Assembly: GCA_023362775.1 (NCBI GenBank)
Contig: JALMGJ010000014.1
Coordinates: 4,055,501 to 4,119,500, forward strand
Origin: Charina bottae
Taxonomy: Eukaryota > Chordata > Lepidosauria > Squamata > Charinaidae
Length of the DNA: 64,000 bases
Reading direction: 5' to 3'
Positions 5,962-59,505 of this stretch are shown here, one piece after another (positions within the stretch are counted from its first letter, which is position 1; each line of letters opens with the position of its first letter). The notes under the pieces were generated by a model that saw only the letters and a program-made list of their open reading frames with translations, searched no databases and had not been told where the DNA came from. Position numbers and translations under genes: made by a program.

Positions 5962-6311
5962 CCAACAGTGTAGTTAATGGTTAAGGTGCTGGGCTAGAAA
6001 CCAGGAGACAGTGAGTTCTAATCCCGCCTTAGGTATGAAAGCCGGCTGGGTGACCTTGGGCCAGGTCCTGTCTCTCAGCCCTAGGAAGGAGCCAATGGCA
6101 AACCAGGAGACTGAGAGTTCTAGTTCCTCCTTAGGCGTGAAAGCCGGCTGGGTGACCTTGGGCCAGTCACTCTCTCTCAGCCCAACTCACCTCACAGGGT
6201 TGCTGTTGTGGGGAAAAGAAGAGGAGGAAGGCGTATTAGGTATGTTTACTACCTTGAGTTATTTATACAAATAATAAAGGTGGGATAAAAATTAAATAAA
6301 TAAATAAATAA
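5962..6311 (+). mobile_element. tRNA-derived SINE, duplicated body with a LINE-like tail of a different type
   Basis: It has the same head and body as the 2385 element, with the body present twice (units start at 6035 and 6137, again 102 bp apart, again fused at AAACCA). After the second body the sequence runs into cacctcacagggttgctg, then aataataaaggtgggat and an (AATA)n tail. That tail is unlike the BovB-type tail of the 2385 copy and looks L2/CR1-like. I found no clear TSD. Confidence 0.8.
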
Positions 6312-39579: not shown

Positions 39580-39673
39580 TTCCCTTACCAACTTTGCTCA
39601 GACTGAAGAAGCTCCTTGGATAAGGAGCGAAACGTTTCCACTGAGAAAATAGAAATCCAGTTGACATGATTCA
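39580..39673 (+). mobile_element. Solo 94-bp Penelope-like fragment carrying a hammerhead
   Basis: These 94 bases match 59125-59218 base for base, and also the reverse complement of 58542-58635. The segment spans the complete hammerhead core with about 23 bases before it and about 37 after. I see no TSD and no surrounding palindrome. Confidence 0.88.
39603..39636 (+). ncRNA. Hammerhead ribozyme core, intact
   Basis: CTGAAGA (39603-39609), then stem II gctcctt-gga-taaggagc with near-perfect pairing, then GAAAC (39629-39633) and GTT as candidate cleavage triplet. Flanks ctcag and ctgag can pair as an outer stem I with an internal loop. The arrangement fits type I hammerheads of Penelope-like elements. 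Confidence 0.75.
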
Positions 39674-58305: not shown

Positions 58306-58437
58306 GGGCTAGTAGAAGATTTGATAGAAGGAAATATTTCTTCACACAGCATGAAATCCATATGTGAAACTTGCTGGCACAAGATTTGGTGTTGGCTAGG
58401 TTAGATAGCTTCAAAAGAGGACTAGGCCAGTGTTTCT
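58306..58437 (+). mobile_element. CR1/L3-like LINE 3' fragment
   Basis: Contains gaaatatttcttcacacagc followed by tgctggcacaagatttggtg and gatagcttcaaaagaggact, which parallels the 3' end of CR1/L3-like LINEs. Diverged and short. Confidence 0.55.
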
Positions 58438-58475
58438 CAACTTTGGCAACTTTAAGATGTGTGGGGGCTTCTTCA
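58438..58475 (+). mobile_element. hAT MITE left-end fragment
   Basis: cagtgtttctcaactttggc and aactttaagatgtgtgg match the left half of the 57044 MITE; the right half is absent. The preceding octamer gactaggc fits nnnTAnnn. Confidence 0.8.
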
Positions 58476-58578
58476 GTAGAACGACTATTGTCCTTATGTC
58501 TATGAAGGTTCTCAGTCATCCAGGTGGAATTGTCTGTAGCTTGAATCATGTCAACTGGATTTCTATTTTCTCAGTGGA

Positions 58579-58612
58579 AACGTTTCGCTCCTTATCCAAG
58601 GAGCTTCTTCAG
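58579..58612 (-). ncRNA. Hammerhead ribozyme core, left arm
   Basis: On the minus strand CTGAAGA (58606-58612), stem II and GAAAC (58582-58586) followed by GTT are identical to the 39603 copy. Confidence 0.75.
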
Positions 58613-59147
58613 TCTGAGCAAAGTTGGTAAGGGAATCCTAAATATGTTTCTAGGTAGCTGTGTGACCTTACACCTGGGGTCATGGTTATATTGAGATGTT
58701 ATTTTAAGTCCTTTTGTTATCTAAAGGAGGATCGTTAAGATCACCATGCTGCTGTTCAGCTTGTGAAATGGTCTTAATCTTCCTAGGCACAGAAGACAGA
58801 GCCGGGAGAAAGATGGGAGAAAGATTGTGCCATTTATAAATAAATAAAGATTGTGCCATTTATAAAATAAATCCATTTATGCCAACTTGGAAAATCCTTC
58901 CTTGAATAGAGGTGGGGGCCTCAGGCACAATCTATCTCCCATCTATCTCCCGACTTTGTCTTCTGTGCCTAGGAAGATTAAGACCATTTCACAAGCTCAA
59001 CAGCAGCATGGTGATCTTAACGATCCTCCTTTAGATAACAAAAGGACTTAAAATAACATCTCAATATAACCATGACCTAGCCCCAGGTGTAAGGTCACAC
59101 AGCTACCTAGAAACATATTTAGGATTCCCTTACCAACTTTGCTCAGA

Positions 59148-59181
59148 CTGAAGAAGCTCCTTGGATAAGGAGCGAAACGTT
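59148..59181 (+). ncRNA. Hammerhead ribozyme core, right arm
   Basis: CTGAAGA at 59148-59154, stem II gctccttggataaggagc, GAAAC at 59174-59178 and GTT. Mirror image of the left-arm core about position 58880. Confidence 0.75.
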
Positions 59182-59238
59182 TCCACTGAGAAAATAGAAA
59201 TCCAGTTGACATGATTCAAGCTACAGACTATTGTCCTT

Positions 59239-59505
59239 GCTTAGAGGAAATCTTATCTTCCCCTGGAGAAATTTGGTGAAATCGTTCAGCTGAGTTTCTC
59301 AGCTCATCAGTTTGGTGAAGAATTTTGCAAGATCCTTCATGCCTATCTCTAAAATAAGTATCTCACTCTTCAGAAGAACAAACAAAAAATCCAGACTGTC
59401 CTTGATTTTAAAAAGGACAATTTGAATGGATCCACTTTACAGAGCCCTGGCATGCAACTGTGCACATTTGTTCATTGTCTTTCTACACTTACCACAGCAG
59501 ATGGC
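59239..59505. other. Short gene-free stretch
   Basis: Nothing recognised between the PLE palindrome and the 5S-derived SINE. Confidence 0.5.

Follow-up and report, generated by a model that had tools for sequence, protein, structure and literature searches.

One tailed and one tailless arm: a palindromic Penelope-like element insertion in Charina bottae, probably primed on both target strands

The window, meaning the whole 64,000-nt stretch of Charina bottae DNA that was analysed, contains a 730-nt insertion at 58496-59225 with a perfect 13-bp direct repeat on both sides (Table 1), as the initial annotation had reported. The right boundary can be placed only to within 3 nt, because the GAC that opens the right copy of this target-site duplication (TSD) is also element sequence. 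The insertion is built from two arms arranged head to head. Inverted pairing extends over 58528-58679/59081-59232 (152 nt, 99% complementary) and 58678-58831/58924-59077 (154 nt, 97% complementary), and the left and right arms differ by five mismatches and one gap in 298 aligned bases, which is far beyond chance. The initial description of two inverted arms of about 300 bases holds for their orientation and complementarity, but the arms are not equivalent: only the left arm carries an extra tail of about 36 nt, and the right arm extends 54 nt further inward. Coding sequence, stated to be absent, is present at the inner end of the right arm, which includes the end of the open reading frame (ORF) of a Penelope-like element (PLE). 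The head-to-head junction lies inside a 26-nt direct repeat (58820-58872) that re-employs the inner end of the left arm, and thus looks like templated filler.

Table 1. Features of the insertion and its borders, in window positions.
Feature	Position	Strand	Remarks
Left TSD copy	58483-58495	.	13 bp, GACTATTGTCCTT
Tail	58496-58531	-	about 36 nt past the tailless end, ...AATTCCACCTGGATGACTGAGAACCTTCATAGACAT; equated with the 30-40-nt PLE tail described in the available text of PMC11167929
Left arm, tailed	58496-58831	-	PLE 3'-terminal stretch up to -303 (element frame)
Left-arm hammerhead-like region	58570-58620	-	CTGAAGA 58612-58606, GAAA 58586-58583; predicted cut between 58579 and 58578
Shorter piece of PLE ORF end, left arm	58743-58829	-	tblastn
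Head-to-head junction	58832-58869	.	38 nt, inside a 26-nt direct repeat
Right arm, tailless	58870-59225	+	PLE 3'-terminal stretch up to -357
PLE ORF end, right arm	58872-59051	+	last 59 codons and stop, end of GIY-YIG polyprotein
Right-arm hammerhead-like region	59140-59190	+	CTGAAGA 59148-59154, stem II 59156-59162/59167-59173
Right-arm hammerhead boxes, continued		+	GAAA 59174-59177; predicted cut after 59181
Right TSD copy	59226-59238	.	13 bp, GACTATTGTCCTT

Several further features were noted in the window. A second PLE piece at 39580-39673 (94 nt, 100% identity to the reference arm) covers the hammerhead region only; it has no tail, and no common flanking word of at least 7 nt was found around it. 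Just outside the left TSD copy, 14 nt at 58464-58477 match the hammerhead core and stem II in 13 of 14 positions, a likeness that may be due to chance. Two arrays at 2424-2735 and 5998-6183, about 3.3 kb apart, consist of nearly the same 102-bp tandem unit. The segment 59494-59600 resembles 5S rRNA (tctgatctcagaagctaagcag) and is possibly a 5S-derived SINE; no Rfam match was obtained for it at the gathering score.

The identity of the element follows from its copies elsewhere in the genome. At other loci the arms run into a body encoding an RVT_1 and a GIY-YIG domain, the scores for the body at locus L027 being E=2.6e-11 and E=3.8e-05, respectively. Homologous proteins number 1984, and those of fish and Xenopus, with about 63-71% identity, are among the best listed. 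From this body and these homologues the element is assigned to the EN+ PLEs, so that the link to Penelope made by the initial annotation is borne out: both arms represent the 3' terminus of an element encoding reverse transcriptase (RT) and GIY-YIG, and in the window they contain the end of the ORF only. A search of solved structures returned nothing below E=0.3. In L067, L068, L070, L071, and L073 a same-strand pseudo-LTR lies upstream, with the tail continuing into the body, which is the usual PLE arrangement. The pseudo-LTR with an optional 3' tail of 30-40 nt known from PLEs is represented here by a tail of 36-39 nt on one arm, and the variable-length TSD with 5' truncation by TSDs at 28 of 30 loci and by arms cut at different points. 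Judged by sequence, the window unit is a 5'-truncated EN+ PLE insertion of the Penelope/Poseidon type. A metazoan non-LTR retrozyme was considered and rejected, as the two copies are opposed, an ORF end is present, and a canonical hammerhead match is absent.

CTGAAGA, a 7-bp stem II, GAAAC, and GTT are found in each arm (59148-59181 on the plus strand, 58612-58579 on the minus strand). The opposed hammerhead boxes named in the initial annotation are thus in place, but the cores are not full: helix III consists of C-G/A-U only, without a loop, and an extra A separates CTGAAGA from stem II. The suggested covariance check went against them, since Rfam 15 gave no hammerhead match for the whole window or for 58400-59300, either at the gathering score or at E<=10. 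The best Rfam matches were miRNA models on the long inverted repeat, which scored below the gathering scores and were taken as spurious. All features of minimal PLE hammerheads are present, namely CUGANGA, GAAA, stem II, a reduced helix III, and a GUH site. According to the available text of two papers (PMC7761336, PMC7229834), PLE hammerheads have CUGANGA...GAAA boxes located in the pseudo-LTRs and a nearly absent helix III. The window boxes are like these minimal type I forms, and differ from the published arrangement in that the two copies are opposed. The window hammerheads are accordingly classed as the minimal PLE form and as predicted ribozymes; by the criterion of an Rfam match they are not canonical type I hammerheads.

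After removal of seven partial matches, 62 full-length copies remained, 57 of them with CTGAAGA and GAAAC intact. RNA folding favours stem II together with a CUCAG/CUGAG pairing, and is modestly better than in shuffled sequences (z -1.4 to -2.8). In a young subfamily comprising at least 20 of the 62 copies, a G to A change at position -39 breaks a pair of the CUCAG/CUGAG stem. As the window copies are opposed, neither strand contains a tandem hammerhead pair. Furthermore, in a transcript the one sense copy would face about 300 nt of its own antisense, so that cleavage appears less likely here. The title of a paper cited by reviews reportedly says that PLE hammerheads cleave as dimers, and Cervera and de la Pena 2014 and Lunse et al. 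2017 are said to be the primary papers on the minimal type I PLE hammerheads.

The element is abundant. In the genome assembly (1.80 Gb, 278 contigs) the window unit gives 534 first-look candidates and a 1945-nt tailed arm used as query gives 2796, 40 being scored in each case; on this first look, hundreds to thousands of candidate copies exist. From the 40 scored of the 534 candidates, sample 1 was formed; it comprises 37 distinct loci, including the window, and each of these loci was fetched. Two extra insertions were found within the fetched stretches (L039 1863-2753 and L046), giving a total of 39; the small PLE pieces L030 1-372 and L024 8496-8545 were left outside the classes. Two head-to-head arms, both of which end at the canonical 3' sites or no more than a few bases away, are present in 29 of the 39 insertions, a proportion that may be inflated, as the sample was drawn with a two-arm query. 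These 29 are L009-L012, L015, L017, L019-L026, L028, L029, L031-L035, L038, L039, L040-L042, L044, L046, and the window. L012 was counted although its right end sits past about 0.8 kb of other DNA, and the left end of L044 lies in L045. L013, L016, L027, and L039b each consist of one tailed arm, its truncated end bounded by a TSD. L037 combines a tailed arm with a second arm (2099-2631), whose start at -73 lies immediately 5' of the hammerhead core; a 13-nt TSD word is present. The insertions L014, L018, L030, L036, and L043 fall outside both classes because an end is missing or no TSD is present.

L044 together with L045 forms a nearly symmetric palindrome with arms of more than 2 kb and one difference in 1394 positions compared. 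Two variants are common to both of its arms and absent from the other sampled loci that cover those positions.

In 28 of 30 loci the two flanks have a word of 12-19 nt in common, with no more than one mismatch; the word is partly formed by bases that also belong to the element ends. A TSD score of at least 8 was reached in the same proportion of loci (28/30), whereas only 2 of 300 pairings reached it when flanks of different loci were combined at random. For L044 and L046 the TSDs were identified by eye. Library preparation can create long palindromes, and an assembly artefact or a chance fold-back chimera was therefore considered. We give this explanation next to no credence in view of the TSDs, the tail asymmetry, and the different junction at each locus.

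All 28 tabulated two-arm insertions have distinct pairs of inner truncation points. TSD-bounded copies sharing their outer 3' ends are numerous, as the initial annotation expected, whereas its proposal of a non-autonomous form that is copied as a palindrome fails on the inner junctions. As only the outer 3' ends are common and the inner points differ, each palindrome was made anew. Long inverted arms within a TSD would also suit a foldback or MITE-type DNA transposon. This candidate was rejected: the termini are unlike, with a tail on one side only, the arms are part of a coding retroelement, and the inner junctions do not recur. A palindromic family of either kind is considered very improbable.

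Among 27 junctions compared (L037 and L030 included, L024, L039, L044, and L046 left out), ten show an overlap of 1-10 nt, of which overlaps of 1-2 nt can be chance, two are flush, ten have 1-10 extra bases, and five have 18-644. Such junctions look like the end joining of two cDNAs. The longest filler, the 644 nt between the arms of L017 (3024-3667), includes 68 nt that were copied from another part of the PLE. The tailless arm is the longer one in 19 of 28 insertions and the tailed arm in 9 (p = 0.09).

The most regular feature of the two-arm insertions is the distribution of the tail. In sample 1, exactly one end is tailed in all 29 two-arm insertions (left 17, right 12). Sample 2, drawn with the 1945-nt tailed arm, yielded nine new loci with both arms among 40 scored, all nine with one tailed and one tailless end; the common flank word is 13-16 nt long in eight of them and 8 nt in one. 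Of the 23 remaining single-match places in sample 2, ten were extended, L067, L068, and L069 being left out of the counts. A tailless second arm with a TSD emerged in L065, L073, and L074, and a single tailed arm with a TSD in L070, L071, and probably L066. As sample 2 was selected for tailed arms, it tests only whether the partner is also tailed, and none of the resolved partners is. Altogether, the 41 two-arm insertions whose two outer ends were resolved at canonical sites (29 + 9 + 3) all have one tailed and one tailless arm. The tailless ends fall short of the usual site by 7-17 nt in three of the 41 (L031, L055, and L064; two sample-2 ends, by 12 and 17 nt). A further listed pair, C201:73805128/73805486, likewise with one tailed and one tailless arm, stands outside the count.

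The second arm of L072 (471-501) ends at -43, the predicted hammerhead cut (CGAAACGTTT), with TTT also present in the target. In this single case the end looks as if the template had begun at the 3' end of a cleaved RNA.

How often tailed arms occur was estimated from a tail-blind sample. A tailless query gave 241 candidates; apart from the place of the query itself, the 20 best comprise 9 tailed and 11 tailless arms. With about half of the arms tailed, an independent choice at each end would give about half mixed pairs, and the probability of 41 in 41 would be 0.5^41 = 5e-13. Among the 40 scored candidates of this query a second arm was listed at three; together with the two-arm query behind sample 1, this indicates that two-arm insertions may be the minority.

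The tail also bears on the idea that the palindrome arises by fold-back, in which a cDNA primes itself on a single (antisense) template. Arkhipova and colleagues 2013 proposed such self-priming for bdelloid Penelope elements (PMC3846280, available text), and it would yield the head-to-head orientation, the near-identical arms of young loci, and a long, nearly symmetric palindrome such as that of L044. However, an arm copied from its partner cannot gain a tail that the partner lacks, or lose it at the same site each time, and all 41 resolved insertions are asymmetric. Differences between the arms of the window, L009, and L010 at several positions, described below, add to the difficulty, the corresponding signal in L011 being confined to 2 of 20 positions. 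Fold-back is therefore held to be improbable.

Arms lacking a tail were examined for a tailed partner with an exact pattern combining the arm's own target word and the reversed tail; five of the 11 tailless arms were tried. For L087, which had been chosen beforehand, a tailed partner was found 2.3 kb away (C24:6026737-6026761) in the predicted orientation and with the same target duplication; the two other matches to its pattern lie on other contigs. At L085, L104, L092, and L101 the exact-pattern search revealed no tailed partner nearby, and a search for a tailless partner at L092, L085, and L104 was likewise negative (0/3). Applied to 27 known pairs, the method recovered 14-22, depending on the offset. 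About three to four partners in five would thus have been expected, as against the one found, and single tailless arms therefore probably exist; L018 is perhaps one of them. The generalisation that single arms are always tailed, suggested by four of four TSD-bounded single arms in sample 1, by L070 and L071, and probably by L066, was dropped after these partner tests, from which it also cannot be claimed that the tailed cDNA always comes first.

The differences between the two arms provide information on their templates. For this comparison, differences at position -1 were ignored, as they are an artefact of frame joining. In the window, five of six difference events affect positions at which other loci show both states, and they include a 5-nt deletion that is also present in the right arms of L009, L010, and L029. 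The arms of L009 differ by four such both-state events and at one private position, those of L010 by eight both-state events and at six private positions. The signal in L011 is weak (both-state differences at 2 of 20 positions), and L017, L033, L037, and L042 have 2-6 both-state positions; many of these differences are transitions, which could arise repeatedly. Each window arm also has a closer match in an arm at another locus than in its sister arm. Private mutations alone can produce this nearest-neighbour pattern, and the two-template claim therefore rests on the both-state positions. These point to an origin of the arms of the window, L009, and L010 from different template variants. The arm-to-arm conversion offered by the initial annotation for the likeness of the window arms was rejected on account of the discordant variants.

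Elsewhere the arms agree. The G/A state at position -39 is concordant between arms at 26 of 26 loci (16 GG, 10 AA), and in L044, L017, L022, and L011 both arms have variants seen at no other locus. Both arms thus usually stem from one source, possibly one RNA, and sometimes apparently from two. This concordance is what would be expected if one RNA were copied twice, by two RTs in line that start at the proximal and the distal site on different target strands, and if later ectopic conversion made some arms differ. The steric order of the two enzymes would explain the rule of one start of each kind, and the greater length of most tailless arms would follow. Yet the trailing, tailed cDNA should not be the longer one, as it is in 9 of 28 insertions, and the discordant variants of the window, L009, and L010 require extra conversion events. 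We consider this course rather unlikely.

The reading we prefer, and regard as probable, is that the palindrome is a single EN+ PLE insertion in which both cut strands were primed, at two start sites divided between them, and the cDNAs were joined. It sets out from the observed anatomy, the TSDs, the one-tail rule of the resolved two-arm insertions, and the mixed templates at some loci; a dimeric protein, the timing of the steps, and the pathway of joining are conjectural. The PLE protein, probably as a dimer, would cut both strands about 13 bp apart. Each 3'-OH would then prime reverse transcription, usually on an RNA of its own, from a start that lies downstream of the hammerhead core by about 110 nt in one case and by about 72 nt in the other. 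Both cDNAs would extend until they stop and be linked head to head by end joining, resulting in the palindrome. If only one cDNA were made, a single-arm, LINE-like insertion would arise. The hammerhead would be a passenger, as part of the pseudo-LTR. A stricter version, whose chances we put just short of even, assumes an asymmetric RNP with two RNAs acting on both strands. In that case the start sites would be obligatorily one per strand whenever both cDNAs are made, the head-to-head palindrome would be a regular product, and the "optional tail" would mark the start site.

The two-strand reading can be compared with L1 twin priming, in which the second target strand also primes on the element RNA and an inversion inside the TSD results. 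What is inverted in twin priming is the 5' portion of a single RNA copy, whereas both PLE arms copy the same 3' end.

The closest system studied in vitro is PAc of Anolis carolinensis, a Poseidon-type element (Frangieh et al. 2024, PMC11167929), which like the present one has an ORF for RT and GIY-YIG and a hammerhead pseudo-LTR. According to the available text of that paper, the anole protein cleaves and extends both target strands, is predicted to be dimeric, and initiates reverse transcription internally, at two adjacent sites between which the tail lies. By the published positions, RT starts at 111-118 in PAc, compared with tailed ends at about +110 from the base after CTGAAGA here; the predicted cut lies 26 nt downstream from the same base, and 26 is also reported for PAc. 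No difference in start site between the strands was seen in vitro (PMC11167929), which is a point against a division of one per strand. Furthermore, PAc is described there with a tandem organisation and an optional tail, whereas the resolved two-arm insertions here contain one start of each kind.

The Penelope elements of Adineta vaga, as far as described in the available text of PMC3846280, share the inverted head-to-head pseudo-LTRs, the TSD (8-10 bp), and truncated derivatives, and have a 31-bp tail optionally on one pseudo-LTR. They differ in their much lower copy number and in the explanation given, self-priming on antisense RNA. Priming of this kind fails to explain a tail that is present on one arm and missing from its partner.

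Head-to-head pseudo-LTRs, the optional 30-40-nt tail, and minimal hammerheads have already been described for PLEs, and the window palindrome is a well-preserved, ordinary example of a class already known. The one-tail regularity of the two-arm insertions looks new. Among open PubMed Central papers, no earlier description of a two-strand or two-template PLE model was found.

Among eukaryotic retrotransposons, PLEs make up the third class, and a tested explanation of their inverted pseudo-LTRs and optional tails has so far been lacking. The one-tail rule, together with two templates at some loci, leads to a concrete model that is testable in the existing in-vitro system. With this rule, many copies in the genome can also be interpreted as pairs of primed cDNAs whose starts are known.
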